Virus record (IMG/VR): IMGVR_UViG_3300045970_000560
Coordinates: 1-42,459 of that record
Source: a virus
DNA length: 42,459 nt
Direction: 5' to 3' (one strand)
This document shows positions 1 to 42,459 of the stretch, piece after piece. The notes under the pieces are model-generated. The model saw nothing but the letters and a program-made list of their open reading frames with translations, had not been told where the DNA came from and did no database searches. Each line of letters starts with the position of its first letter. The stretch's first letter is position 1. The translations under genes were made by a program, and so were the position numbers.

Positions 1-19
1 GCCAGGAACCAAAAAAATA

Positions 20-46
20 CCCCCCATATATGGGGGGTCGTTTTTT
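20..46 (+). terminator. GC-rich hairpin with T-tract at the E2 right end
   Basis: Six C, ATATAT and six G form a perfect stem, followed by TCG and a run of T. It has the form of an intrinsic terminator that closes the E2 integrase operon; the full operon copy ends just before the identical hairpin at 42248. Confidence 0.75.
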
Positions 47-48
47 AG

Positions 49-96
49 CAAAAAGCACGACATAGGCCAAAAACGGCTTTTTATCGTGCTTTTTCC
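49..96. terminator. Bidirectional terminator-like hairpin beside the att core
   Basis: AAAAAGCACGA pairs with TCGTGCTTTTT, with an inner GCC/GGC stem. A-rich and T-rich flanks on either side allow it to work on both strands. It insulates the attachment site from transcription in either direction. The same hairpin is present near 42277–42324. Confidence 0.65.
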
Positions 97-104
97 TTTA
101 TTCG

Positions 105-121
105 TGCTGGGGCACCTGGAT
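105..121. other. att core copy A (E2 right end | E1)
   Basis: This 17-bp core (TGCTGGGGCACCTGGAT) is shared with 36331–36347 and 42333–42349. On the minus strand it reads as the last bases of a tRNA-Gln acceptor and T-arm. The left flank is the E2 right end and the right flank is the E1 tRNA-like sequence, so it is a hybrid junction between the two elements. Confidence 0.85.
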
Positions 122-177
122 TCGAACCAAGATCCACAGATCCAAAGTCTGGTGTGCTGCCATTGCACTATGCGTAG
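107..177 (-). tRNA. tRNA-Gln(TTG)-like sequence with a defective acceptor stem
   Basis: The minus strand shows a D-arm (GTGC/GCAC), an anticodon arm with loop CTTTGGA (anticodon TTG), and a T-arm with TTCGAAT. The 3' acceptor strand is TGCCCCA, normal for tRNA-Gln. The 5' strand is CTACGCA rather than TGGGGCA, so only the three inner acceptor pairs can form, and one anticodon-stem pair is also lost. I read it as a phage-carried or displaced tRNA copy used as attachment sequence and probably not charged. A real host tRNA whose 3' end was replaced by recombination is the alternative. Confidence 0.6.
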
Positions 178-4759: not shown

Positions 4760-5530
4760 ATGTCAGAAGAAAAGAGCTTGTATGTAATCAAGGATAAGAC
4801 CATCACCCCGTCGATCTGGAACATGATTCGGGAAATGGCCCCGGTTATCCACCAAAGCCGGATGTTCGGGGTGACCTCCGTAGAGCAGGGCATGGCGATC
4901 ATGCTTAAGGGCTATGAGATTGGCATTGGTTTTACCGCTTCATTTGAATTGATTCAGGTTGTTCAGGGAAAACCGGCCCTCTCCCCTCGGGGGGCTCTGG
5001 CCCTGCTGCACAGTGCGCCCGAGATCAAGACCGTGAAGATCACCCGATTGGTTGACTCTTCCGGGAAATTCGTTGGTTATGAATGCTTCATGGAACGAAA
5101 CAACGGTTTTTCGTACACAGCCCGTTGGACCATGGAAGATGCAAAGCGGGCTGGATTAATCAAACCTGATTCGGGGTGGGCTTCGTACCCAGAAAACATG
5201 TGCATGTGGCGCGCCATTGGCTTTGCTGCGGATGTGGTTGCCCCCGATATCACCGCCGGCCTGACCCTGACTATGAAGGCCCCAGAAATGTTCGGCGCCG
5301 GGATTGATGACAATGGCAACCTGGTCATTGACGGTGTTTCTCCTACAGCACCATCAAAAACAGTGGTGCCAGATCCGCCGGCCGCTCCAATGATGACTCT
5401 CGATCAACTCGTGGATTTATTTGGGGTTGATGCCGTCCTGACCGCCAATGACGGCCTGATGCCGATGTCTGATTCACAGGTGAATACGGTGGCCATGAAG
5501 CTGGCGGGGGTGGCGCAATTAGCATCATAG
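4760..5530 (+). CDS. RecT-family single-strand annealing protein (probable)
   Basis: A 256-aa protein starting at ATG 4760, two bases after the nuclease gene. The central region (MAIMLKGYEIGIGF, VQGKPALSPRGALALL, ARWTMEDAKRAGL, MWRAIGFAADVVAPDI) follows the order of conserved blocks seen in phage RecT-like proteins, including the order-specific 'GKPALS' and 'ARWT..DA' segments. The last 70 residues are a Pro-rich linker and a small helical tail. Annealing proteins pair with exonucleases; here the ERCC4 and Cas4-like nucleases flank it. Confidence 0.7.
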   Translation: MSEEKSLYVIKDKTITPSIWNMIREMAPVIHQSRMFGVTSVEQGMAIMLKGYEIGIGFTASFELIQVVQGKPALSPRGALALLHSAPEIKTVKITRLVDSSGKFVGYECFMERNNGFSYTARWTMEDAKRAGLIKPDSGWASYPENMCMWRAIGFAADVVAPDITAGLTLTMKAPEMFGAGIDDNGNLVIDGVSPTAPSKTVVPDPPAAPMMTLDQLVDLFGVDAVLTANDGLMPMSDSQVNTVAMKLAGVAQLAS

Positions 5531-5580
5531 ATTATCGCCAATCCCAAAGTATCTCATCCGATGACCATTCTTTCCATGCC

Positions 5581-5793
5581 TTGATTATGGCGGCGATGAG
5601 AAAGGCCGATGACACCAACCTCGAAAAACTCAAATCTGTTTTCCCGGAAACTTTGGCTGAACTCAGGGCTCGCTACAATGCGCCTGGTGGGGCCCTGAAC
5701 GAACAGGAATTAGCCTGGGTAATGCGGGTTATCGAAGATAACGCCATTATTGAACAGGCCGCCGAAGATTTGGAGGATGTATATGCCGCCTGA
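5581..5793 (+). CDS. Small helical protein; true start probably upstream
   Basis: The 70-aa frame begins with TTG at 5581, with ATG codons at 5587 and 5596, but none has a ribosome site. The same frame stays open upstream to the RecT-like stop and reads as plausible protein (IIDYRQSQSISSDDHSFHA). This suggests coupled initiation near 5518–5530 at a non-standard codon such as ATT or ATA. The protein is acidic and helical, with GALNEQELAWVMRVIEDN. It precedes the nuclease gene with an 11-bp overlap. Function unknown. Confidence 0.6.
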   Translation: MIMAAMRKADDTNLEKLKSVFPETLAELRARYNAPGGALNEQELAWVMRVIEDNAIIEQAAEDLEDVYAA

Positions 5794-6550
5794 ACTCGAT
5801 CACCTTTCTTACTCAAGCATCAGCTCATACCTCGCCTGCGGGGCTAACTGGAAGTTTAAGTATGTTGACCACATCCCCACCCGGCCAAGTGCTGCACTGG
5901 TATTTGGCAGCGCTTTTCACAACACTTGCGAGGGTTTTATCCTCGGTGGTTACCAGGGTGACATTACCGCCATGTGGCGGGAAAACTGGCTTGCTCAACT
6001 CGAAAAAGAGAAGATCAGCGACTTTGACGGCGAATCTCCCGAAAAATTCCAGAACGACGGCATCCGGATGTTTAACAATCCAGAGGTAAAAGCCGGGATA
6101 CTGAGTATCAAGGCGGCAACCCACGCAGATGGTGAACCATGGATTGAAAAGAAAGTGGAATTACGTGTGCCAGGCGTTCCGCTTCCGATCATTGGTTACC
6201 AGGACATCATGACCCCGGACGGACCTGGAGATTTCAAAACCTCTTCCCGTGCATGGTCTGTTGATCAAGCCGCTAAAGAGATGCAACCCATCTTCTACAT
6301 GGCGGCTTTAAACCAAATGGGAGTAAGAGTAGACAGCTTCACCCATTATGTGTTTGTCAAAACAAAAACTCCTCAGTTTCAAAAGATCACCACCCCGCAT
6401 AAGCAGAGCGAAATGTTCTGGCTTTTCAAGATGATCCAAGCTGCCTGGAAGGGAATTGAGACCGGGGTCTATCCTCTCAACCCTACCGGGTGGAAATGTG
6501 ATCCTCTGTACTGTGATTTTTACAACATTTGCCGGGGAAAGTATCTCTAA
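5783..6550 (+). CDS. PD-(D/E)XK nuclease, Cas4/RecB-like, with Fe-S cysteines
   Basis: ATG at 5783 lies seven bases after GGAGG. The 255-aa protein has the PD-(D/E)XK core: a conserved Asp in IIGYQDIM and the catalytic DFK in GPGDFKTSSRAW (about residues 140–158). One cysteine near the N-terminus (YLACG) and three at the C-terminus (KCDPLYC, NIC) match the four-cysteine iron-sulfur cluster of Cas4/AddB-type nucleases. It is expected to be a ssDNA exonuclease that partners the RecT-like protein. The frame contains a perfect ATACTGAGTAT motif at 6098. Confidence 0.85.
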   Translation: MPPELDHLSYSSISSYLACGANWKFKYVDHIPTRPSAALVFGSAFHNTCEGFILGGYQGDITAMWRENWLAQLEKEKISDFDGESPEKFQNDGIRMFNNPEVKAGILSIKAATHADGEPWIEKKVELRVPGVPLPIIGYQDIMTPDGPGDFKTSSRAWSVDQAAKEMQPIFYMAALNQMGVRVDSFTHYVFVKTKTPQFQKITTPHKQSEMFWLFKMIQAAWKGIETGVYPLNPTGWKCDPLYCDFYNICRGKYL

Positions 6551-6595
6551 GTGAAAAAATGAGGGCTGCGCATTCACAAAACGCAGAGGTAAAAA

Positions 6596-6733
6596 ATGAA
6601 TTGCCCAAAATGCGGTCATCCGATGTCTTACACCCAAGCAAACGGGGTTGCCTATTACTACTGCTACACATGCAAAACCAGTTGGAACGCCCCGGCATGG
6701 CGGGCGATTGCTTCGATCACGAGGGCAAAGTGA
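6596..6733 (+). CDS. 45-aa zinc ribbon protein
   Basis: ATG at 6596 after AGAGG. Two CxxC knuckles (NCPKCG at residues 2–7 and CYTCK about 20 residues later) form a compact zinc ribbon that fills the whole protein. Its TGA overlaps the next GTG start. Proteins of this type are common accessory factors in phage early regions; partner and role are unknown. Confidence 0.6.
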   Translation: MNCPKCGHPMSYTQANGVAYYYCYTCKTSWNAPAWRAIASITRAK

Positions 6734-7599
6734 ACGCCCAACAAACACTCTTTAATATGGGTGTGTCCAACAAATGCACAGTCACCATCCGGGGTGATGC
6801 TTACTGCTTAAAGACGCCATATGACCCGGCAGCCGTTGCGTCGATCAAGAACCTGCCCGCGTCAGACCGGAGATATGACCCTCAAGATAAGGTTTGGCTT
6901 ATTTCTTTAAATCAGGGTAAGCGAATTGTCGACCTGGTGCAGCTTTATTTCGGGGAGACGGTTGTATTGCCCTCTATCGTGAAAGTCCCACCCCAGAAAG
7001 AACAACGCATTATCGAGTGTCATTATATTGGCCAGTGCAAGAACCCGGATGGTACCGAGAGCCGGGCTAATGGGTGCGATCAAAACAACAACTGGATTTA
7101 CGTGTTTCCTGAACAGGTTTTAAGAACGTTTTTTGATGGCACTTCTGAGGATAACACGCCCAAACAATCTGACACACTCTACTCAGTATTAGGGGTGCAA
7201 CAGGGCGTGACACAAGAAGATATCCGGGTTGGTTATCGAAGAATGGCAAAAAGTTGGCATCCTGATATCTGCAAGGAGCCTAACGCCCACCAGGTGTTCC
7301 TGCGTATTCAAGAAGCCTATGAGATTTTGAGTATGCCCGGAAAGAAAGCTCGGTATGATGCGGGGCTGGCGTTTGAGGCAACGCTTGGTAAGCAGGTTTC
7401 AAAAGAAATGTGGATTGACTCTGCAAACTACCGGAGCCCTCTCCGTTGCGGAATGATCATGTGCGACGGGATTGAGACTCTGGGTAAATTCAAGGTTTCA
7501 AAAATTATCCTGTGGCAGGACGTTTTTAATAAGTTCGGTCAGGTCCTTGTCTCTTCCTGGGTTATGGGTGGGAAAGAGCCGGTGAAGGTGTGGGCGTGA
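6730..7599 (+). CDS. J-domain (DnaJ) protein with HARP-like N-terminus
   Basis: GTG at 6730 overlaps the previous stop and follows GAGGG; a longer frame upstream would overlap the zinc ribbon gene. In the 289-aa product, residues 10–75 resemble the small N-terminal module of SNF2/HARP proteins (YDPAAVASIKNLPASDRR, YDPQDKVWLI). Residues 150–215 form a J-domain with the essential HPD (SWHPDIC). J-domains stimulate Hsp70 ATPase, so the protein may recruit host DnaK to a replication complex. The C-terminal 70 residues are not recognised. The link to replication is from context. Confidence 0.75.
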   Translation: MNAQQTLFNMGVSNKCTVTIRGDAYCLKTPYDPAAVASIKNLPASDRRYDPQDKVWLISLNQGKRIVDLVQLYFGETVVLPSIVKVPPQKEQRIIECHYIGQCKNPDGTESRANGCDQNNNWIYVFPEQVLRTFFDGTSEDNTPKQSDTLYSVLGVQQGVTQEDIRVGYRRMAKSWHPDICKEPNAHQVFLRIQEAYEILSMPGKKARYDAGLAFEATLGKQVSKEMWIDSANYRSPLRCGMIMCDGIETLGKFKVSKIILWQDVFNKFGQVLVSSWVMGGKEPVKVWA

Positions 7600-9152
7600 C
7601 AAAAAACTCATACATCACTGCAACTGACCAATTTTGCGGAGCCGGTGGATCTTCAATTGGGGCGACTGATTCCGGGATTGAAGTTAAGTTGGCGATGAAC
7701 CATTGGAAACTGGCGTGCGACACCTATGAAACGAATTATCCAAATGTTCAACCCGTATGCACTGACGTTTCAGCCACGGACCCGCGCCGGTATCCATCCA
7801 CCAACATTCTGATCACTTCCCCGGAATGCACAAACCACAGCCTGGCAAAAGGTAAGCCCCGGCGCTATTACGACAAAGATCTTTTTGGCAATATCCTGAT
7901 CGATCCATCCGAAGAGCGCAGCCGGGCCACGATGTGGGATGTTCCCCGATTTGCAGAATATCACGATTATGAACTGATCGTTGTTGAAAACGTGGTGGAT
8001 GCTGGCAAGTGGCGGCTTTGGGAAAGTTGGATCCATGCGATGAATGCCCTGGATTACGAGCACAAAGTGGTTTATTTCAATTCCATGTTTGCCTGGCCAA
8101 CGCCGCAATCCAGAGACCGGATGTATACGATTTTTTGGAAACGTGGAAATAAGGCGCCGGACTTGGATTTCCGCCCATCCGCACCTTGCCAATTTTGCGG
8201 AAAAGATGTTGGAGCAATTCAGACTTGGAAGAAGCTAGCCCACTGGGGCAGATACGATAAGCAGTATTTTTATCGCTGCCCGAAATGTCATCGGGAAGTA
8301 AAGCCATTCTATTATGCCGCTCTCAATGCGATAGATTGGACAATTCAAGCTGAGCGGATCGGTGACCGAAAGAAACCCTTGATGCCGAAAACAATGGCCC
8401 GCATCCAATACGGTCTTGACACCTACGGAAGAAAGCCACTGATCATCACGGGGCGGTATACCACCGGCATTGATTGTCGGGTTAGAAATGCGATGGAAGA
8501 TGTAATTCCCACCCAACCGGGGGATTCCAGTCATGCAGTAGTTTTTCCCTGGATGGTGGAAACAGAATACACCGGCGAGCAACGAACTTCCAGCGGACTT
8601 GATCCGCTTGTTACTCAAACCTCAAGACAATCGAGCGCGCTGGTTATGCCCTGGCTTGTAAAAACAGTTCGTCAGGAGTCTGGTGACCGTGTTATCAGCA
8701 GCCTCGAACCCGGATGGACACAAACCACATGCCAGGATATGGGGATTGTATCTCCTTCCTTTATCGCAGAATTACATGGAACTTCTAAGGCTTCCGGAAT
8801 GGATGATCCAATGCTCTGTGTAACGGCTGGAGGTAATCATCACGCCCTTCTCTCTGTAAATGCGCTCTTGACTTATTACTATGGCACTCAGCAGGCCAGC
8901 GGTATGGGTGATCCAGTTCATACGGTTACCGGAATAGATCGAGCTGGCCTGGTGGGGTCGCTTGAAAACTTAAGTGTCAACGATCTTACATTCCGGATGC
9001 TGAAATCTCACGAGGTGGGAAGGGTTATGGCTTTCCCTGGAAAATACGTTGTTCTTGGAACCGAACGGGATAAGGTCAAACAGTATGGGAATGCAGTAAC
9101 CCCGCCGGTGATGGAAATGCTCTTGAAACGGTGCAAGGCAACTTTAGAGTAA
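7590..9152 (+). CDS. C5 cytosine DNA methyltransferase with variant motif IV
   Basis: 520 aa, overlapping the J-domain gene by 10 bp. Motif I (QFCGAGGSSIG), motif VI (VVENV), motif VIII (PQSRDRMY) and motif X (YGNAVTPP) are all clear. Motif IV reads SPECTNHS, so the catalytic Cys follows Pro-Glu instead of directly following Pro as in the usual PCQ. A four-cysteine zinc ribbon (CQFCG and CPKCH) lies near residues 205–235, in or before the target recognition region. A long central insert has repeated 'GxDPLxTQT'-like segments. It probably modifies phage DNA against restriction; the product base is not certain. Confidence 0.85.
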   Translation: MGVTKNSYITATDQFCGAGGSSIGATDSGIEVKLAMNHWKLACDTYETNYPNVQPVCTDVSATDPRRYPSTNILITSPECTNHSLAKGKPRRYYDKDLFGNILIDPSEERSRATMWDVPRFAEYHDYELIVVENVVDAGKWRLWESWIHAMNALDYEHKVVYFNSMFAWPTPQSRDRMYTIFWKRGNKAPDLDFRPSAPCQFCGKDVGAIQTWKKLAHWGRYDKQYFYRCPKCHREVKPFYYAALNAIDWTIQAERIGDRKKPLMPKTMARIQYGLDTYGRKPLIITGRYTTGIDCRVRNAMEDVIPTQPGDSSHAVVFPWMVETEYTGEQRTSSGLDPLVTQTSRQSSALVMPWLVKTVRQESGDRVISSLEPGWTQTTCQDMGIVSPSFIAELHGTSKASGMDDPMLCVTAGGNHHALLSVNALLTYYYGTQQASGMGDPVHTVTGIDRAGLVGSLENLSVNDLTFRMLKSHEVGRVMAFPGKYVVLGTERDKVKQYGNAVTPPVMEMLLKRCKATLE

Positions 9153-34463: not shown

Positions 34464-35174
34464 TTATGACGATGCCGGATCCCGCAGGCTGGCGATCGCG
34501 GCAAGGATGGCATGGCGCTCCAGGTCAGGCATCGTTTGCAGGCGTTTCTTCCACCGGTCCTGCTTGCGCTTGATTCGCTCGCGCTCTCGGAAGTCGTTTC
34601 CGAGGAACCGGTAATCGTGCAGCTCCAGGGGCGGGGGAAAATTCATCCAGACATACTCAGTTGCGGTCTTTCCACTTCGGGTTTGAGCCTGGAAGCTGGC
34701 CGAGCGCCAGGCCTTGAGTTTATCAGCGTATAGTTCGGACCAATAGCCGGAAATCATTACCTTGCAGCGCAGACGGCAGGCGGTATCCAGCAGCCAGGCG
34801 TGTTCGTTTTCGGTTGCAAATTCATGCTTATAAATTGGCCTTTGGCTGGACCGGGTGCTCATCAGATAAGGCGGGTCCAGGTAGAGCAGGGTTTCAGGGC
34901 TGGAGATATATTTTGCAGATGGACCAGGTGCCAGGTATTCCAGAGCGCTGATTGGGTGTAACTCCAGGTTAGGAATGCCGAAATTCGTTTTTCCGAAATC
35001 GTGCAATGCTCCAGCATCGATATCTATACCGATACTGGCCAGTGGCGCCGGGCGCTTGATGCGCATGATAGCGCCGCCTCCGAGAAAGGCTTCGATATAA
35101 ACATCGTGCGGCGGCATCAAATTGATGATCGCCTGATAAACACCTGAACCACTTTTTCCACCTGGATAAGTCAT
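34464..35174 (-). CDS. N6-adenine DNA methyltransferase (D12 class, Dam-like)
   Basis: 236 aa. SAM-binding motif YPGGK near the start, EAFLGGGAI (motif I) and the catalytic YLDPPYL (DPPY) are present. The C-terminus is basic. It methylates adenine, probably to protect phage DNA from host restriction. Together with the C5 enzyme at 7590 the phage carries two different modifications. It lies on the minus strand with the integrase. Confidence 0.85.
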   Translation of the reverse strand: MTYPGGKSGSGVYQAIINLMPPHDVYIEAFLGGGAIMRIKRPAPLASIGIDIDAGALHDFGKTNFGIPNLELHPISALEYLAPGPSAKYISSPETLLYLDPPYLMSTRSSQRPIYKHEFATENEHAWLLDTACRLRCKVMISGYWSELYADKLKAWRSASFQAQTRSGKTATEYVWMNFPPPLELHDYRFLGNDFRERERIKRKQDRWKKRLQTMPDLERHAILAAIASLRDPASS

Positions 35175-35353: not shown

Positions 35354-36262
35354 TCACATCCGATCTACCGGACTGGCTACCTGGTGTCCCCTACTTAAAT
35401 CTGTGTTATTGAGAGCAAGATATCTCTGAGTTACAGAAACGTTGGAATGACCGAGCAACTTACTCAGGGTCATTAGGTCCATGCCATTCCGCAAGCACTC
35501 CAAGGCAAACGCCCGACGAAAATCATGCAACCCGGGCCGGGTAATTTTTGCCTGATCCGCAAGGCGATAAACACGAGATTTTAGAGCGCCATAGGAAAAA
35601 CGATCATCGGCATCCGTGGCGAACAGCGGATCATCTACCTGGAGACCCTCCCGACTTTTGAGGTATTTGCGCAAAAGCTTAAGTACTTTTCTTCCTGCGT
35701 GGACGGTCCGGTGTTTGTCGCCTTTTCCGTGCCTCACTTCCACATCCCCGGTTATCAGGTCCGCGTCCCCCACATTGAGGGCGCACAACTCCGCTGCCCT
35801 TAGCCCTGTGTCAAACAAAAACAAAAGCAAGGTTTTATCCCTTTCCGCCAGCTCTCCAGTACATGTACTCAGTATGGCGCGCAGCTCCGCGGGTGCTATT
35901 CCGGGTCGTGCCTGGGTGTTTACTTTTGGCGGACGCACTTTCAAGATTGGGTTCTTCCAGGCATCGGGCTCAAATTCTTCTTCGTACCAGTTAAGAAAAC
36001 CCCTCACCGCCCGAAAGCTTGCATGTACCCCTCCCCCATTCCGGGTCTCTGCCAGGTGCAAAAGATATTCCCGGATGAGGTTCGGTGTTATGTTCTCAAC
36101 TGCGAATACGGCCCGGCCAACGATCCACCGCTCGAATCTGTGGATCTCATCTTGATAATAAATGATCGTACCAGGCGCCAGCCCCCTGCTGCGGCGTTCG
36201 ATCAGCCAGGCGGAAATGAGCCGAGAAAGTTGAGTCTGGGGATCTTGTTTTTCTGGGGTCAT
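35354..36262 (-). CDS. E1 tyrosine integrase
   Basis: 302 aa from ATG at 36262. The catalytic residues are visible: Arg in DTGLRAAELC, Lys in GKGDKHR, HDFRR (H-x-x-R), the second His in LLGHSNV and the nucleophile Tyr in TQRYLA. An N-terminal SAM-like domain covers residues 12–85. The gene is 70 bp from the att core, as expected for a tRNA integrase. It should recombine the E1 attP with a host tRNA-Gln. Confidence 0.9.
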   Translation of the reverse strand: MTPEKQDPQTQLSRLISAWLIERRSRGLAPGTIIYYQDEIHRFERWIVGRAVFAVENITPNLIREYLLHLAETRNGGGVHASFRAVRGFLNWYEEEFEPDAWKNPILKVRPPKVNTQARPGIAPAELRAILSTCTGELAERDKTLLLFLFDTGLRAAELCALNVGDADLITGDVEVRHGKGDKHRTVHAGRKVLKLLRKYLKSREGLQVDDPLFATDADDRFSYGALKSRVYRLADQAKITRPGLHDFRRAFALECLRNGMDLMTLSKLLGHSNVSVTQRYLALNNTDLSRGHQVASPVDRM

Positions 36263-36265
36263 AAT

Positions 36266-36313
36266 CAAAAGGCTCCTTTACCCCCATATGTGCTGGGTAA
36301 GGAGCCTTTTGAC
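36266..36313 (-). promoter_or_regulatory. Long hairpin covering the integrase ribosome site
   Basis: On the minus strand AAAAGGCTCCTT-ACCC pairs with GGGTAAAGGAGCCTTTT (12 bp, a one-base bulge, then 4 bp). The 3' arm contains AAAGGAG, the likely ribosome site of the integrase. The hairpin ends in CCTTTT, so it may also terminate transcripts entering from the tRNA. Either effect would limit integrase expression. Confidence 0.65.
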
Positions 36314-36330
36314 CTAAATAATTCCGCATT

Positions 36331-36347
36331 TGCTGGGGCACCTGGAT
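36331..36347. other. att core copy B (E1 | E2 left end)
   Basis: The second copy of the 17-bp core. E1 (integrase side) lies to the left and the E2 left end to the right, so it is the second hybrid junction. Confidence 0.85.
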
Positions 36348-36457
36348 ATGCACCTTATAAGGGAAAACAATACACTTTTCGCAAACCGATTTTATCATCT
36401 TGAAATGCAATTGGGGCACCGAGGCGGCTGTATATTTTGGAGACCTTACTATTACGT
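36331..36457. repeat. E2 left end, repeated at 42333–42459
   Basis: 127 bases are identical to the last 127 bases of the window. This includes the 17-bp core and a second near-copy of it (TTGGGGCACCGAGG near 36411) that could be an integrase arm site. The exact length of 127 equals a common assembler k-mer, so an assembly origin cannot be excluded. Confidence 0.9.
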
Positions 36458-36504
36458 ACAATAAGGTTAAAAATTGCGTTCAATGCTTTTTTTATTGTAT
36501 AAAA

Positions 36505-36520
36505 GTGGTATCATTACCAC
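36505..36520. promoter_or_regulatory. Inverted repeat GTGGTA-N4-TACCAC
   Basis: A 6-bp inverted repeat with a 4-bp centre lies in an AT-rich upstream region of the first E2 gene, close to a TATAAA-like sequence. It may be an operator for the E2 regulator. Confidence 0.4.
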
Positions 36521-36630
36521 ATAGAGAACGCCATGTGTTGACCCCAGCGGGTTGCTTCGCACCTCCCCAGGTTGGTGAGAACGACACCCTTAGTTGAGAG
36601 GTCATAGCCAAAAGCGACAAAAACAAGGAG

Positions 36631-36686
36631 CGACTATTTCCGTTCATGCGCGTGCATGCACCTGGGACGGAAAGGGTCGTTTTTTT
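36631..36686 (+). terminator. Leader terminator/attenuator before the first E2 gene
   Basis: CGAC-TA-TTTCCGT pairs with ACGGAAA-GG-GTCG around a CATGCGCGTGCATG inner hairpin and is followed by seven T. It lies 20 bp before the first plus-strand E2 gene, so E2 late genes may be controlled by attenuation or antitermination. The remaining 36458–36630 shows no gene. Confidence 0.7.
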
Positions 36687-36705
36687 GTTTCCCGCTGGAG
36701 GCGCG

Positions 36706-36903
36706 ATGAATAAGCCAAAAGAAGAATTTCTCAAACTCCGCTTAGACCCCCGTTCAGCATATATCCTGAATAAGCTGGCAAGTGCGACATTTCGCTCAAA
36801 GGCGATGACTGTCCGGTTTTTGATTCGGGCTGCTGGCGCGGCGTTGGTCGATACCGGGAAAATACAGGACCCGGAACCAATCGCAGAGGAAAAAATAAAC
36901 TGA
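36706..36903 (+). CDS. E2 ribbon-helix-helix-like small protein
   Basis: 65 aa from ATG at 36706 after GGAGGCGCG; a longer frame would run through the terminator. The segment EEFLKLRLDPRSAYILNKLA followed by a helix with MTVRFLIRAAG fits a ribbon-helix-helix DNA-binding fold. It is probably a regulator of the E2 operon. Confidence 0.6.
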   Translation: MNKPKEEFLKLRLDPRSAYILNKLASATFRSKAMTVRFLIRAAGAALVDTGKIQDPEPIAEEKIN

Positions 36904-36997
36904 TTGCCCGAAACCAAAACCACCCTTCACGGGGGTGGATGGTGGATGGAGCAAAAGAAAGGTGGATTTCAAATGATCACAACAAGGAGAAACGAGA

Positions 36998-37639
36998 ATG
37001 AGCGACTATGTTTCAGATTACGAAGCGAATAACGCCCTGGCCGACATTGAAACCAACACGCCCGAATTTAGGGCCTCCTATGAACAAACCCTGCGGGCAG
37101 CGGTCCAGGATGTACGTCAGGCCCATTGGGAAGCGAATCAGAAGGTTGTAAGGGGACGTTACGCGGCTGATATGGCAGCGGCCAAGAGCATGAACGAACG
37201 CTTTATGATCCGGCGCAAGTACGAAGAAAAAGAGGGTTTGGCTGATTCAATGCCAGCAGGCTACGGCGGCAATTTGGACTTAAGCGCAGAAGTACAGCGG
37301 GTGAAAAATTCCGCTATTGTAGCGGCTGCACAGCTCACCCGTCAGGCCCAGGTTGCCCGTCTGAAAGCGGAAGATGAAAGCCCGCTTGCTTTTGCATATC
37401 AGAAAGCAATGAAAGAAAACAGAGGTGGTCCAGAAACGGCGCGGAAGATCCGGCAGCAGTTTTTCTCAATGGGGTACAGCCCCGATGGCGTAACAGCCCC
37501 GGAACCTGTGGCCCTGCCTTCCGGCGCTGCGCTTGAAAAGCTGCGGGCTGAGTATGAGTCTGAGTATTCAAAGGCCCAGACCGGCCCCTTGAAGCGGCAC
37601 ATCCGGCAAGTTTTCAGGGACAAAGGCTTAAATATCTAA
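36998..37639 (+). CDS. E2 hypothetical helical protein (213 aa)
   Basis: ATG at 36998 after AAGGAGAAACGAG. The protein is highly helical and charged, without cysteine, and has repeated acidic/basic segments (YEQTLRAAVQDVRQAHWEAN). The ending SKAQTGPLKRHIRQVFRDKG is basic. Scaffold-like or size-determining proteins of satellites look like this, but sequence alone gives no family. It lies before the TerS-like gene. Confidence 0.65.
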   Translation: MSDYVSDYEANNALADIETNTPEFRASYEQTLRAAVQDVRQAHWEANQKVVRGRYAADMAAAKSMNERFMIRRKYEEKEGLADSMPAGYGGNLDLSAEVQRVKNSAIVAAAQLTRQAQVARLKAEDESPLAFAYQKAMKENRGGPETARKIRQQFFSMGYSPDGVTAPEPVALPSGAALEKLRAEYESEYSKAQTGPLKRHIRQVFRDKGLNI

Positions 37640-37654
37640 GCGAGGTCTTACACT

Positions 37655-38035
37655 ATGCCCGAAAATCTGACACCCCGCCAACTAAAAACCGTTGAACTGC
37701 TTGTATCCTGTGGAGATGTAACCGAGGCCGCAAAACAAGCAAGGGTAAGCCGGGACACTGTCTACCGTTGGATGCACCAGCCCGCCTTCCGGGCCGCCCT
37801 GAACCGGGCTATTGAAACGGCAGTAAGTGACCTGAGTTTGGGTTTGGTGTCATTGGGCAGTAAAGCCCGGTCGGTTTTGGCTGAGATGCTGGACGATACC
37901 ACGGTGATGCCAGCCGCCAGAATTAGGGCAGCGGATATTGTCTTTTCTCGATTGATCCAATTGAGAGAATTGACCACGGTTGAAGCCAGGCTAACCGCAT
38001 TGGAGGCGGCCCAAGATGTCAACAAACATAAATAA
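37655..38035 (+). CDS. E2 TerS-like helix-turn-helix protein (phBC6A51-type)
   Basis: 126 aa. The N-terminus (LTPRQLKTVELLVSCGDVTE, then AAKQARVSRDTVYRWMHQPA) is the HTH of phBC6A51/small-terminase proteins, followed by a helical oligomerisation-like region. It is unlike the E1 TerS outside the HTH. Satellites use their own TerS to redirect helper packaging, so this is the clearest satellite marker. A plain regulator or a degenerate phage gene are alternatives. Confidence 0.65.
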   Translation: MPENLTPRQLKTVELLVSCGDVTEAAKQARVSRDTVYRWMHQPAFRAALNRAIETAVSDLSLGLVSLGSKARSVLAEMLDDTTVMPAARIRAADIVFSRLIQLRELTTVEARLTALEAAQDVNKHK

Positions 38036-38225
38036 CCGGCTGACCAAGCTGGAACAGACAGAACAAGTAGAGGTGAACCGCCCTGGCGTGTGGTCGTCCT
38101 TCTGGCGTAATCTTTCCATCGCCTACGGCAACGGCGCACCAACCGAACCGAACCCCACCAACCTGGCAGAGCGTATCAAGGCGGCATTTGTGCAGGTATT
38201 TGGCTCGAAAGGCGGCAAAGAATGA
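38016..38225 (+). CDS. E2 small protein (69 aa), N-terminus shared with next gene
   Basis: ATG at 38016 overlaps the previous stop by 20 bp. The opening MSTNINNRLTKLEQTE is a short coiled-coil-like segment also seen in the next protein (MNTNGRLQKLEAAI). The rest has no recognised domain. The pair may be small structural or accessory proteins. Confidence 0.55.
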   Translation: MSTNINNRLTKLEQTEQVEVNRPGVWSSFWRNLSIAYGNGAPTEPNPTNLAERIKAAFVQVFGSKGGKE

Positions 38226-38500
38226 ATACAAACGGCAGACTTCAAAAACTGGAAGCGGCAATTACCCCGGCCGGTGGCAAGTGTCATATAGTACGCGTTG
38301 ATAATGGCGTTTTCACCATCGCCGGGAAATACCTGAACGAAGATCAATACGTGGTGTGGGAAAATTCCCTGCCGGCAGTCGATAGCGTTATTGTTCTCTG
38401 GCGTGACCCCCGCCCACCCGAAAGACGGTCCCGTGTGGCCGTTATCAGCATGCCCGACAACAGCAGAGATTCCGAAATACCGAGGGCTCAGTACATGTAA
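38222..38500 (+). CDS. E2 small protein (92 aa)
   Basis: ATG at 38222 overlaps the previous stop as ATGA. After the shared NGRLQKLE opening comes a beta-rich middle (KCHIVRVDNGVFTIAG) and an end with arginine-rich RDPRPPERRSRVAV. Function unknown. It is followed by a 91-bp gap without a visible gene. Confidence 0.55.
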   Translation: MNTNGRLQKLEAAITPAGGKCHIVRVDNGVFTIAGKYLNEDQYVVWENSLPAVDSVIVLWRDPRPPERRSRVAVISMPDNSRDSEIPRAQYM

Positions 38501-38591
38501 ATGCTACAAGCCAAGCCCTACTTCTAAGGTCAACTCATTCAGTAGATCGGAGAAGATAAGGTAATCAGAATAGACTAAATGAGGTCCAATA

Positions 38592-39368
38592 ATGTACACC
38601 TATGTAAAAGGAAAGATGACATGGATAGACGACCCGCCCGCTGCGCCTGCGCCGACTGCCTTTGATTCATCGCAGTACAATCGGCAAACCAAGCCGCCGC
38701 CGCCCGCCCCAGTTGCCTTTGATCCATCACAGTACAACCGCCAGGCCAGGGCTCGTGGGCTTTCTCCCCTGATGCAGCCTCAACCCCTGCAGCAACCGAG
38801 CCGGGTAGCCGATTACGCCAAACCGCCAGTTTTTTCGTTTGTGGCTCCGACACCGAGACACTACGTTGATCCCTGGGGTTTCCAATCCGCGATAAAACCA
38901 CGCCCGACTGAATTGGTGTATCCAAACGCATTCCCGACTACGCCCGGAATGGGGAAATATTTCGACCCCTGGTCCACCTACAACCAACCCCAAGCGATCC
39001 CTATTCCCTTTCCTGCCAATGGCGGTACAGTTCCAACGTTCATGCAGTTCCCTCAGCCTCAGTTACAGCCGGGACAAACAGCGGCAAAACGTCCGGCCCC
39101 TGCCGGATGGGGATCATCTGCCCCCAATGGTCGCCCGTCTGCACCATTCAAAACAGCTTGGGGGACAGCCTGGGGGTTTGATCCCTCCAACTACCCCGGC
39201 AAAAATGCCGTTGGATACCTGCCCCCACTCGGGCCAACTGCTCCAACTTATGGCGGCGGCTATTCGTCAGGCTATAGCGCTTATGATGGCTATGGCGGTT
39301 ATGGTGGTGGCGGTTATTCTGCGCCTCTCCCCTCATGGTATGCGGACCTTTTGATGTGGAATATTTAG
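38592..39368 (+). CDS. E2 Pro/Gly/Tyr-rich repetitive protein (258 aa)
   Basis: ATG at 38592 after GAGGTCC. The protein is mostly low-complexity Pro/Gln/Tyr, with AFDSSQYNRQ and AFDPSQYNRQ repeated near the start, YVDPWG and YFDPWS in the middle, and a Gly/Tyr-rich C-terminus (GGYSSGYSAYDGYGGYGG). Such composition is typical of disordered structural or adhesive proteins. It may be a virion component, but no family is seen. Confidence 0.6.
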   Translation: MYTYVKGKMTWIDDPPAAPAPTAFDSSQYNRQTKPPPPAPVAFDPSQYNRQARARGLSPLMQPQPLQQPSRVADYAKPPVFSFVAPTPRHYVDPWGFQSAIKPRPTELVYPNAFPTTPGMGKYFDPWSTYNQPQAIPIPFPANGGTVPTFMQFPQPQLQPGQTAAKRPAPAGWGSSAPNGRPSAPFKTAWGTAWGFDPSNYPGKNAVGYLPPLGPTAPTYGGGYSSGYSAYDGYGGYGGGGYSAPLPSWYADLLMWNI

Positions 39369-39431
39369 GGGCATCTTTTGGAGCATCTAGCTTGCTACTG
39401 GTCGGCGCTTGATTGGTGATCGGCCCCGGCC

Positions 39432-39536
39432 ATGTACGACAAACACCTGAACGGCTACAGGGACTTTACCAACCCCTCACCCCCCACCAGTAGCAGAAAG
39501 GCGGCTATTGGTGGGGTGGCCCTCAAAGGTGTGTAG
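39432..39536 (+). CDS. Possible 34-aa peptide (low support)
   Basis: An ATG at 39432 opens a 34-aa frame (MYDKHLNGYRDFTNPSP start) that runs through the terminator-like hairpin. It lacks a ribosome site. It is listed because the 39369–39904 interval otherwise has no gene; it may well be spurious. Confidence 0.2.
   Translation: MYDKHLNGYRDFTNPSPPTSSRKAAIGGVALKGV
39482..39516 (+). terminator. Stem-loop after the 258-aa gene
   Basis: CCCCACCAGTAGC pairs with GCTATTGGTGGGG (13 bp, one G-T wobble) around a 9-base loop. No long T run follows, so it may be a weak or factor-assisted terminator. Confidence 0.5.
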
Positions 39537-39594
39537 TAAAAATGCCAGGGGGGGGGAAAACTTTCAGATTAGAAACCTTAACAAATCGCATGCT

Positions 39595-39717
39595 GATAAC
39601 TTGCAAAAAAGGCGATAAAGCGATTATCCAAAACACGAAAAAACACCCATTTTTTAGGTGATAACTTGATAACAGTGTTTTGATAAGTGCAGTTATCTTA
39701 ACCATCTTTGTGTTATC
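39595..39717. other. GATAA repeat cluster: candidate E2 origin or packaging site
   Basis: GATAA or TTATC occurs eight times in 123 bp (39595, 39614, 39624, 39660, 39668, 39682, 39693, 39713). TGATAACTTG is directly repeated (39594, 39659) and GGCGATAA at 39612 has its complement TTATCGCC at 39713. The region lies between convergent genes, so it is unlikely to be a promoter. An ATGCCAGGGGGGG sequence flanks it at 39542 and 39910. The rest of 39718–39904 is AT-rich with no visible gene. Confidence 0.55.
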
Positions 39718-39904
39718 GCCTGTTTTTGCATGTTTCAAGGTATGGTTACGGATCATAAATGACCCATAAGTAGCCTTGAAAAATTCAGGTTGTATAACCT
39801 TTTGGGTATTTTGGGGGCAAATTGGGGTGAAAACTGCTATAGAAAAGCAGAATGTATTTTCAACACAAACCATTCTGCAATCTTAACAAAAGTCGATTAT
39901 TTCT

Positions 39905-40267
39905 TTAGGATGCCAGGGGGGGATTATCAGATTCACCCTCCCATTCCTTGTGCGATTTTAGATATTCATCCGTTGCAATTTCATCCGCTTTTGATGCTCT
40001 TTCCCATGGATCATCTTTATCCCACCGAATCAAATCACCTGGTTGACAATCAAAGTAACGGCACAGGGTCTCAATTGTGGCTACGTCAATTCGGTCAAAG
40101 TTCTGAGACACAAGGCGCACGAGTGTACTCGTACTTACCCCGGTCTCTTTGGCGATTGTGCGATAAGTAAGCCGGCGACCTGCTTTCAATTCTTTCTCTG
40201 CAATCAGGACTTTTAGCCTTGAATAGATCATCTTTTCACCGTTCTTGATTTCAGTTTGTGCAAGCAT
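39905..40267 (-). CDS. E2 Cro/CI-type HTH regulator
   Basis: 120 aa from ATG at 40267, nine bases after GGAGAAA. The XRE helix-turn-helix is clear (RRLTYRTIAKETGVSTSTLV, then RIDVATIETLCRYFDCQPGD), of the small YozG-like type. An acidic C-terminal tail follows. It faces the E2 integrase promoter and probably represses it. Confidence 0.75.
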   Translation of the reverse strand: MLAQTEIKNGEKMIYSRLKVLIAEKELKAGRRLTYRTIAKETGVSTSTLVRLVSQNFDRIDVATIETLCRYFDCQPGDLIRWDKDDPWERASKADEIATDEYLKSHKEWEGESDNPPLAS

Positions 40268-40283
40268 GGGTTATTTTCTCCTA

Positions 40284-40369
40284 TTGTACCCGATAGTAAA
40301 AACACAGTTGTTTGTACCGATTATACAGTAATCGCTACCGTTGACAAGATGGCAAACAATGGTTACAAT
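40284..40369 (+). promoter_or_regulatory. E2 integrase promoter and operators
   Basis: TTGACA (40341–40346) and TACAAT (40364–40369) are 17 bp apart, a strong promoter for the plus-strand genes. Upstream lie TTGTACC repeats near 40284 and 40312 and the palindrome CGATTA-TACAG-TAATCG (40318–40334), likely sites for the divergent regulator. Confidence 0.75.
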
Positions 40370-40460
40370 GTGCTTGCTAGCAAATACAAAATACAAATCA
40401 GTAAAGCGGCAATCAAAAAAACGTTACCAGATGCCACAGGAACACACAGGAGCGATGCAA

Positions 40461-40751
40461 ATGAACACACGCATATCAAAAGACGTTTCAAAAGAAAAAA
40501 GCGTCAAGATTGGAACCGGCGTTTTTCAAATACCGGCGCACATGGATATTTCCGGAATGGTTGAATGCTGGCGGGATGATTCAACCGAACTGGAAAGCCT
40601 TGCTAAAACCATCGTTGAAACAAATCCAAAGTTTGCTGGAATGATTGTTCACTTTTGGCTTTTGAAGCGTGATTATCTACTTACTGAGAACCATAAGAAA
40701 AGGGGGGAAATGGATCAAGCAAATGATCAAACAAAAGGCGGGCCGGCATGA
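40461..40751 (+). CDS. E2 hypothetical protein upstream of integrase (96 aa)
   Basis: ATG at 40461, eight bases after AGGAG; an ATG at 40455 is too close. The first half is basic and the second acidic/helical (DDSTELESLAKTIVETNP, then HFWLLKRDYLL). It overlaps the integrase start by 4 bp. A recombination or regulatory partner is plausible from position only. Confidence 0.55.
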   Translation: MNTRISKDVSKEKSVKIGTGVFQIPAHMDISGMVECWRDDSTELESLAKTIVETNPKFAGMIVHFWLLKRDYLLTENHKKRGEMDQANDQTKGGPA

Positions 40752-41797
40752 TAAACCGTCAAAACTTTCTTGATACTCGTGAACACATGGAATACAGGCG
40801 GCAAGTCATCCAAAACGATGACGGTACGATCGTTGTTACCCGGCTGGCTTTACGGCACCTTCTCCAATGGGCCGATAATACCCCATTGTGGGATTGTCAA
40901 AAAAAGGTGCCCTCTTTTCCTGAATACATGCTCACGTCCAGAAATGACGGTAAAACCAAACCGCTTACCTCAAAGTTTATTGTCAAAGTTATCGAGCATG
41001 CCAGGGCATTTTATAAATGGGCAAGAATTCACAAGCCAGAATACAGAAAGGTTAGTGAAGCATGGATTGACACTCTTTGGATCAGAAAATCAAGGGGCAT
41101 GCAATCAAGGCTTACTCAACATAACTTTTGGACACTGGAAGATGCAATCAGGGTTGCCACTTTCCCCATTCCAGATGATGATTTACGACACAAGAGGGAT
41201 CAGGCTGCAATTGCATTTATGTTCTTGTCAGGCATGCGGATTTCTGCTTTTGTTACCTTGCCGCTGGCGTGTGTTGATATTGAACATTATCGAATTGCAC
41301 AGGATCCAAGTTATGGTGTACAGACCAAAAACACAAAGGCAGCGATAACCTTTCTTTTACCAATTCCTGAATTGTTGGAAGTGGTCGACCAGTGGGATAA
41401 ACAAATTAGATCGGCTGCATGCTCTGATATGGCTGCATGGTGCCCTGCTTTGGACACTGGGGGAAAAATCAAGGCTGATGACCTGGTAAAGCCAGGTAGC
41501 AACACAAACGGGCGGCGCATGATGATTACAAAGGGCATGATGGAATTGTGCAGGCTGGCCGGCGTTGAATACAAATCGCCTCACAAATTACGGCATGGCC
41601 ATGGCGTTTATGGAGTAAAGACAGCTCGCACAATGGCCGAATTAAAAGTAGTTTCTCAAAATTTGATGCATTCCAGCGTAGGAATAACGGATGGCATTTA
41701 TGGAAATCTAAACCTTGAAGATATGTCAGAGGTTATCAAGACCCTTACCCCGGATAAATTGAAGCGAAAGTCATCACCTTTTGAAAGGGCCGGCTAA
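40748..41797 (+). CDS. E2 tyrosine integrase
   Basis: 349 aa. Catalytic residues: Arg in SGMRISAF, Lys in QTKNTKAA, HKLRHGHG (H-x-x-R), the second His in NLMHSSVG and the Tyr in DGIYGNL. It differs from the E1 integrase over its length, with a longer N-terminal domain. It probably recombines the E2 attP with the same tRNA-derived core used by E1. Confidence 0.85.
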   Translation: MINRQNFLDTREHMEYRRQVIQNDDGTIVVTRLALRHLLQWADNTPLWDCQKKVPSFPEYMLTSRNDGKTKPLTSKFIVKVIEHARAFYKWARIHKPEYRKVSEAWIDTLWIRKSRGMQSRLTQHNFWTLEDAIRVATFPIPDDDLRHKRDQAAIAFMFLSGMRISAFVTLPLACVDIEHYRIAQDPSYGVQTKNTKAAITFLLPIPELLEVVDQWDKQIRSAACSDMAAWCPALDTGGKIKADDLVKPGSNTNGRRMMITKGMMELCRLAGVEYKSPHKLRHGHGVYGVKTARTMAELKVVSQNLMHSSVGITDGIYGNLNLEDMSEVIKTLTPDKLKRKSSPFERAG

Positions 41798-41798
41798 A

Positions 41799-42218
41799 AT
41801 GGATACCGCACCGAAAACACCCAGGATAACCAGAGGGCAAGCAAGGACTTTGCTTCGATTTTTATGGATGGAATACAAACCTTCTGAGATTGCAAACGAA
41901 TTAGGAATTAAGGTAGATACCATTTATAAAAGTTACATTCCAAACGGCATGCCATACCGGATAGACAAGAACGGAAACTATTGGATTGTTGGAACCGATT
42001 TCAAAGAATGGGCGATGGCGATTCTTACCCAAACTATTTACAAGCCAAAAACACCCATGCAAGAAAATCAGGCTTTTTGTGTCACCTGTAAAAGAGCAGT
42101 TTTTTTTGACCCAACAAAAAAAGAAAGCATGGGAAAAGGCCGGTCTTTGGTGCATGGCCGATGCCCTGATTGTGGGGGAAAAACAACACGATTTTCAAAA
42201 GACCAGCCCGATAAATAA
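41799..42218 (+). CDS. E2 HTH/zinc-ribbon protein, possible directionality factor
   Basis: 139 aa from ATG at 41799, just after the integrase stop. Residues 8–75 contain a winged HTH (PSEIANELGIKVDTIYKSYI, then a KNGNYWIVGTDFKEW strand) like excisionase or MerR-type domains. The C-terminus holds two cysteine pairs (CVTCK and CPDCG). Small basic HTH proteins next to integrases are often recombination directionality factors; here this is inferred. Confidence 0.65.
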   Translation: MDTAPKTPRITRGQARTLLRFLWMEYKPSEIANELGIKVDTIYKSYIPNGMPYRIDKNGNYWIVGTDFKEWAMAILTQTIYKPKTPMQENQAFCVTCKRAVFFDPTKKESMGKGRSLVHGRCPDCGGKTTRFSKDQPDK

Positions 42219-42228
42219 CAGATCACAA

Positions 42229-42459
42229 GCCAGGAACCAAAAAAATACCCCCCATATATGGGGGGTCGTTTTTTAGCAAAAAGCACGACATAGGCCAAAA
42301 ACGGCTTTTTATCGTGCTTTTTCCTTTATTCGTGCTGGGGCACCTGGATATGCACCTTATAAGGGAAAACAATACACTTTTCGCAAACCGATTTTATCAT
42401 CTTGAAATGCAATTGGGGCACCGAGGCGGCTGTATATTTTGGAGACCTTACTATTACGT
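42229..42459. repeat. E2 right end | core | E2 left end (junction C)
   Basis: 42229–42349 repeat 1–121, and 42333–42459 repeat 36331–36457. The 17-bp core is at 42333–42349. This is the arrangement expected of an excised circular E2 (attP) or of two E2 copies in tandem. The two terminators described at 20–96 recur here. Confidence 0.85.

Follow-up and report, generated by a model that had tools for sequence, protein, structure and literature searches.

The 42,459-bp virus record IMGVR_UViG_3300045970_000560 of IMG/VR, analysed here in its entirety and referred to as ‘the window’, joins two units: E1, which reads as a complete-looking temperate siphophage, and E2, a 6,002-bp element with an integrase and a small terminase subunit (TerS)-like protein of its own. 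The question raised by this arrangement is what E2 represents: a part of the phage, an integrative island beside it, or a satellite. The answer that we favour, and hold to be probable, is that E2 is a minimal integrative phage satellite of Anaerolineaceae, helped by E1 through the mechanism proposed below; it probably rides in the particles of an Anaerolineaceae virus. The broader statement, that a satellite sits in the attachment (att) site of a Chloroflexota phage, appears well supported, since its TerS is of satellite type, chromosomal relatives occur free of E1, and its core matches an Anaerolineaceae tRNA-Gln gene. To this extent the preliminary description of the locus stands; its view that the small size of E2 is new does not (see below).

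Reading along the record, the order is E2 end, core, E1, core, E2, core, E2 start, with the same 17-bp core (TGCTGGGGCACCTGGAT) at the left end of E1, at the E1/E2 boundary and at the right end of E2 (Table 1); the att core had already been proposed to be common to both. Two longer exact repeats are present: one of 127 bp (36331-36457 and 42333-42459), starting at the left edge of E2 and finishing at the end of the contig, and a second of 121 bp (1-121 and 42229-42349). The former confirms, to the base, the 6.0-kb limits first assigned to E2 (36331-42332). Three junction types are therefore found within a single record—E1-to-E2, E2-to-E1 and E2-to-E2—from which it follows directly that E2 also exists as a free circle or tandem, alongside a composite of E1 and E2; together these account for all three. 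The composite could stem from insertion of E2 into the phage attachment site (attP) of E1, or from a tandem prophage excised as a unit; the sequence fits either. The G+C content of the two units is 0.512 for E1 and 0.480 for E2.

As the right-hand repeat is exactly 127 bp long and lies at the contig end, we take it as the mark of the E2-to-E2 junction rather than as a 127-bp att site, a candidate that we rejected, the identity between the E1 and E2 att sites extending over just 17 bp. It is probably a k-mer overlap, as a metaSPAdes contig assembled with k=127 would leave. A simple graph with k=127 does not account for the left-hand overlap of 121 bp; this may come from trimming, or from variants of E2 present in the sample. 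That one repeat has precisely the k-mer length of the assembler might also suggest that the junctions are an artefact of the common att core; but a core of 17 bp is too short to join contigs at k=127, spanning reads are needed for each junction, and the unit is supported by independent relatives. We consider an artefact very improbable.

To the right of the core at position 105, the window reads on into a tRNA-Gln(TTG) gene in reverse complement; nothing of the kind follows the E2 cores. A search with the tRNA pattern matched 19 genome contigs, all from Chloroflexota and mostly named Anaerolineaceae; identity with the tRNA-Gln of Leptolinea sp. HRD-7 runs from GCATAGTGC to CCCCAGC. The E2 core corresponds to the last 16-17 nt of the host tRNA-Gln gene and equals the attP core of E1, so that both elements appear to use the tRNA-Gln core of Anaerolineaceae; the 3' tRNA fragment retained in E1 is the usual one for a tRNA-targeting phage. 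A search with a 23-mer of the E2 attP gave no match.

Within these limits, E2 is an integrase-bearing integrative element between att repeats and without structural genes, as phage satellites in general are: Pfam-type and PHROGs family searches found no large terminase subunit (TerL), portal, capsid or tail gene among its proteins, in agreement with the content first read from the sequence (an integrase, two regulators, a TerS-like protein and small unknown proteins). E2 lies directly between E1 ends, its repressor and integrase by the att site in the manner of a lysogeny block, and might thus be no separate element at all, but a remnant of the E1 prophage or an accessory block within it. E1, however, has its own integrase at its own att site; E2 closes on itself; elements of its type stand alone in chromosomes; and distant relatives of E1 (TerL 50-61% identical) carry one TerS at most and no E2 genes. 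We find this explanation hardly credible. Nor do E2 genes match those of E1-like phages, an outcome for which the preliminary description had allowed: the TerS matches satellites, and no E2 protein has a significant paralogue among the E1 proteins (all E >= 0.2).

The TerS-like protein itself is the most telling of the E2 products. Against 50,697 phage records it gave 17 matches, of which 16 are satellite phages of Streptococcus and the other is a gut contig without annotation. The TerS proteins of two chromosomal relatives behave alike: that of L059 matched 25 phage records (best E 2e-10), 23 of them from Streptococcus, with all Streptococcus records among the matches listed being satellites, and that of L218 matched 12, eight of which are satellites. 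As a control, the TerS of E1 matched 48 records; the matches listed are all to ordinary phages, and most carry the annotation terminase small subunit. A hidden Markov model (HMM) of eight element TerS proteins (profile A1), run against all open reading frames (ORFs) of four E1-related phages, picked out a sole match, the gene abutting terL, in three of them (G148, G155, G163). It also matched the TerL-abutting gene of the gut contig MT836267 (4e-25), whose TerL is in turn matched by a TerL HMM (9e-26); homologues of the protein are thus found directly upstream of terL. Given these homologues and the satellite-phage matches, we judge the E2 protein to be a true TerS from a branch that occurs in satellites.

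A contrary view is that E2 is a small integrative element that is never packaged, an island moved by its integrase or passively, and that the protein resembling TerS does no more than bind DNA as a regulator. Pfam indeed labels it a transposase-type helix-turn-helix (HTH), and its AlphaFold2 model is weak and without a confident fold (predicted TM score, pTM, 0.51; the best PDB match, phage protein phBC6A51 (2ao9), is not significant at E 0.14); moreover, the same pair of integrase and zinc-ribbon protein occurs at loci without TerS. Set against this are the full-length matches to satellite phages and to TerL-abutting genes, and the occurrence of the TerS across many elements whose integrases and tRNA sites differ widely. 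We regard an unpackaged island as distinctly improbable.

The gene following terS opens with an RLxxLE coil at 13 of 26 loci, as against 1.8% of all ORFs (the motif was picked post hoc, so this is a descriptive figure); two genes of this kind occur in E2. The coil resembles the C-terminus of TerS (e.g. VEARLTALEAA; window 38016-38500 and 25 TerS loci), and MT836267 has a similar coil at the N-terminus of its TerL. The coil protein may mediate or block contact between TerS and TerL. That it is a relic of the TerL N-terminus, as the MT836267 coil prompted us to ask, stays an idea: 77 E1-type TerLs yielded three chance-like matches.

Among 147 host-family genomes, seven hold a relative of the TerS; for the class Anaerolineae the figure is 34 of 396 (about 9%). 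No TerL turned up in any of 27 TerS neighbourhoods, although the HMM used picks up even the divergent one of MT836267. Ten elements are exactly delimited by tRNA repeats (6.4-11.6 kb, repeats of 17-87 bp; Table 1), each with a tyrosine integrase and a TerS; no TerL, portal or major capsid protein was detected in them, larger unassigned ORFs included. They are independent copies of the type, rather than of E2 itself. The E2-to-E2 junction, and the relatives that stand alone in chromosomes, show E2 and elements of its type to be independent of the helper genome; the concern that E2 might be a fixed part of E1 is allayed for the type, if not for E2 itself, of which no near-identical copy turned up. 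Most of the delimited relatives have a primase, helicase or initiator gene. A conserved protein of ~130-180 aa, encoded at ten loci and in delimited elements mostly just before the replication gene, is a possible core gene of the element family; it has no homologue in E2 or E1. One genome (G022:C1) holds two different TerS elements, L063 and L064, at tRNA-Val and tRNA-Pro.

Among the delimited elements, L048 (G015:C21) has the integrase closest to that of E2, from the same family, and a 17-bp repeat, the length of the E2 core; it carries a type II restriction enzyme and methyltransferase as cargo (5899-8085), and a further 326-aa gene without assignment (4783-5763). The 11.6-kb tRNA-Leu element L060 (G002:C18, 5438-17058) combines a satellite-type TerS with a D5-type helicase, and its repressor is 38% identical to that of E2.

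Relatives of the E2 integrase occur in 39 of the 147 host-family genomes. Paired with the HTH/zinc-ribbon protein (L035-L049, L238-L240) it forms a widespread tRNA-targeting module of Anaerolineaceae, seen also near the end of 31-36-kb IMG/VR contigs. In single-protein scans, close relatives of the E2 integrase, p213 and TerS were absent from viral contigs, and those of the integrase from genome contigs as well; the HTH/zinc-ribbon protein alone matched three prophage contigs. Plasmids yielded only distant integrases and no TerS. Two further E2 results were set aside: the AlphaFold2 model of p213 (pTM 0.33), too weak to use, and the genome matches of p258, which reflect low complexity.

Is E1 the helper? 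We think this likely, although E2 could be a satellite for which the tRNA-Gln site is merely common ground with E1, the two forming a passive tandem while another phage does the packaging. Passive tandems are likely with common tRNA att sites; beyond the core, E2 and E1 have no gene or specific DNA in common, a search for E1-like ori or pac copies in E2 finding no common stretch longer than 14 bases; and the relatives occupy many tRNA genes without an adjoining E1-like TerL, none of the 147 host-family genomes containing a TerL of E1 type. On the other side, assembly of a single sample yielded both kinds of junction, E2-to-E2 and E1-E2, suggesting joint excision or replication, and the ratio of the two lengths (36.2/6.0) is near an integer, possibly by chance. 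We rate a helper other than E1 as unlikely, if by no means negligible. E1 also encodes two DNA methyltransferases (7590-9152, 34464-35174).

The intergenic region of E2 at 39542-39922 contains eight GATAA/TTATC sites at 39595-39744, a density exceeding that of all 3,000 first-order Markov shuffles of the region; the cluster may serve as an origin, as an operator array or for packaging. Several observations weigh against E2 as a satellite helped by E1, and this cluster is among them: E1 has no more than three such sites per 150 bp, and so does not have it in common with E2. No E2 protein matches a replication family, leaving the element without an identified replication gene, and contig scans found no near-identical second copy. 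L060 encodes a 539-aa tape-measure protein (phrog_1535, the family of the E1 tape-measure protein) and a minor head protein (phrog_556), such that the wider family is not wholly without virion genes; L060 is possibly a tail-length-resetting satellite, or a decayed prophage. Finally, the E2 TerS lies outside the family of the E1 TerS, and its pairing with the E1 TerL is a prediction. Replacement of terS is typical of pac satellites, and we thus grade this mismatch as neutral.

We infer that E2 depends on E1, and envisage the following cycle. E2 would reside in tRNA-Gln or beside a resident E1, held by its own Cro/CI repressor; upon lytic growth of E1 it would excise, alone or with E1 as a composite circle, co-excision being possible because all of the att sites have the same core. 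Having no recognizable replication gene, it would be replicated largely by the machinery of E1; its TerS would then recruit the E1 TerL to E2 DNA for packaging in E1 particles. The packaged form would probably be a head-to-tail multimer: six copies of 6.0 kb make 36.0 kb, against 36.2 kb for E1, the ratio of 6.04 suiting six copies but being a single number that proves nothing. More speculatively, p213 and the RLxxLE-coil proteins around terS may tune packaging or capsid assembly. A bolder proposal, which we offer tentatively and with some doubt, is of a Chloroflexota satellite family transmitted by sharing the att site of its helper, through tandem lysogens and co-excision as composite circles, and reduced to integration, repression and the choice of what is packaged (TerS and coil proteins), with replication wholly the helper's.

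Table 1. Features of the window and of the related chromosomal elements. Positions refer to the window unless a locus is named; lengths are given for the delimited elements.
Feature	Position or length	Strand	Basis or remark
E2-to-E1 junction: E2 right end joined to E1 left end	1-104	+	identical to 42229-42332; identity runs through core to 121/42349
att core at E1 left end, 17 bp	105-121	+	exact repeats
tRNA-Gln(TTG) 3' ~67 nt in E1 attP; 5' acceptor strand absent	105-171	-	nearly all identical to Leptolinea sp. HRD-7 tRNA-Gln
E1, temperate siphophage, likely helper	105-36330	+	PHROGs: TerS, TerL, portal, major capsid protein, major tail protein, tape-measure protein, helicase, primase, endolysin-like peptidase
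E1 tyrosine integrase, 304 aa, 62 bp from E1 att core	35354-36268	-	translation; similar to element integrases, part of integrase profile
att core, E1/E2 boundary	36331-36347	+	exact repeats
E2, single core-to-core unit of 6,002 bp	36331-42332	+	junction repeats
Small ribbon-helix-helix-like protein, 85 aa, likelier start 36707	36646-36903	+	call by eye; no family match
p213, all-helical, directly upstream of terS	36998-37639	+	AlphaFold2 model all helix; no families
Satellite-type TerS, 126 aa	37655-38035	+	phrog_2538 terminase small subunit, 3.4e-10; 16/17 phage-record matches are satellite phages
RLxxLE-coil protein overlapping terS stop	38016-38225	+	comparable gene at 13/26 TerS loci
Second RLxxLE-coil protein	38222-38500	+	RLQKLEAAITP; cf. 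RLRRLEAAITP in L216
p258, 258 aa, Pro/Gly/Tyr-rich, low complexity	38592-39368	+	no families
Candidate origin/operator/packaging intergenic region	39542-39922		two bounding ATGCCAGGGGGGG copies; 8 GATAA/TTATC sites within 150 bp
Cro/CI-type HTH repressor, divergent from integrase operon	39905-40267	-	PF13443, 8.7e-14
p96, 96 aa, upstream of int	40461-40751	+	no family assignment
E2 tyrosine integrase, 349 aa	40748-41797	+	PF00589, 1.6e-8
HTH + zinc-ribbon protein	41799-42218	+	PF18930, 6.9e-5, below its cut-off; beside int in most relatives
att core, E2 right end	42333-42349		exact repeats
E2-to-E2 junction: second E2 copy begins	42333-42459	+	identical to 36331-36457
Delimited element, tRNA-Leu GAG	7,929 bp		17-bp repeat
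Delimited element, tRNA-Leu TAA	11,561 bp		60-bp repeat
Delimited element, tRNA-Leu TAG	7,280 bp		46-bp repeat
Delimited element, tRNA-Val	6,619 bp		48-bp repeat
Delimited element, tRNA-Pro	7,626 bp		46-bp repeat
Delimited element, tRNA-Arg TCG	7,018 bp		87-bp repeat
Delimited element, tRNA-Leu TAG	9,950 bp		49-bp repeat
Delimited element, tRNA-Thr	10,741 bp		80-bp repeat
Delimited element, tRNA-Arg TCT	6,404 bp		75-bp repeat
Delimited element, tRNA-Arg TCT	7,011 bp		83-bp repeat
Conserved-protein loci	L063 6340-6801; L064 4836-5243; L215 12080-12580; L216 6011-6544; L224 7190-7654; five more		motif PPAWA-D ... GATxV ... NRGFGDQ

How does E2 compare with known satellites? P4-like satellites are, like E2, integrative, small and without virion genes. 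P4 itself differs in its size (about 11 kb), in its large primase-helicase and Sid, and in having no terS of its own, using the cos site and terminase of its helper. With the phage-inducible chromosomal islands (PICIs) and Staphylococcus aureus pathogenicity islands, including the streptococcal Javan satellites (PMC6092414, PMC6813308), E2 has in common an integrase, a repressor, a homologous TerS and the lack of structural genes; terS follows the replication gene in Javan586 as in several of the Anaerolineae relatives. PICIs, however, are about 15 kb long, with a pri/rep module, a set gene order, att sites reported never to be used by prophages and, in some, terS (PMC6092414). E2 has the terS, but its core is the attP core of E1, its length is 6,002 bp, and an iteron-like cluster is present without any replication family; in place of divergent regulators with int on the side of the repressor, its repressor (minus strand) is divergent from p96-int-znr (plus strand). 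Helper-embedded PICIs likewise lie within the helper genome, but interrupt a helper late gene (PMC10111431), whereas E2 lies in the attP core, where it leaves every gene intact.

The phage-inducible chromosomal minimalist islands (PICMIs) of Vibrionaceae are the closest in size: ~6 kb, with a reduced gene set, an integrase, no capsid genes and a circular or concatemeric form, which for E2 is read from sequence junctions. PICMI115 (6,110 bp) lacks terS, sid and ppi; its integration site adjoins fis, it needs virulent phages, and eight copies fill the helper capsid, the packaged concatemer being near helper genome length (PMC10803314). E2, by contrast, has a TerS, a tRNA-Gln site and a temperate partner; of the features that define PICMIs (about 6 kb, no terS, a fis site) it has the size. 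Together with Javan245, a satellite record of 6,450 bp that includes a homologue of the TerS, PICMI115 overturns the earlier supposition that the size of E2 has no precedent and that satellites with a TerS are much larger. Even so, none of the ten delimited relatives is as small as E2, which also has no recognizable replication gene (the large ORF of one relative, L213, is unassigned as well). What is new is the host lineage, the att site shared with a phage and this lack of a recognizable replication gene. E2 works like a satellite, yet lies outside PICIs, PICMIs and helper-embedded PICIs by their definitions, and the elements from Anaerolineae seem to form a family of their own, of satellite kind.

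Most of the phage satellites known come from Proteobacteria and Firmicutes, and we found none described from Chloroflexota in the limited body of literature searched. The related chromosomal elements suggest a family of viral parasites new to the phylum, as far as our searches reached. About 9% of the Anaerolineae genomes sampled carry TerS-bearing elements of 6-12 kb integrated at tRNA genes, including one with restriction-modification cargo, which suggests that the hijacking of phage packaging is also common in a phylum rich in uncultured members. The TerS common to Anaerolineae and streptococcal satellites offers a marker for satellites in other phyla, and E2 itself a test of what a minimal satellite needs, and of sharing the helper's att site as a strategy.

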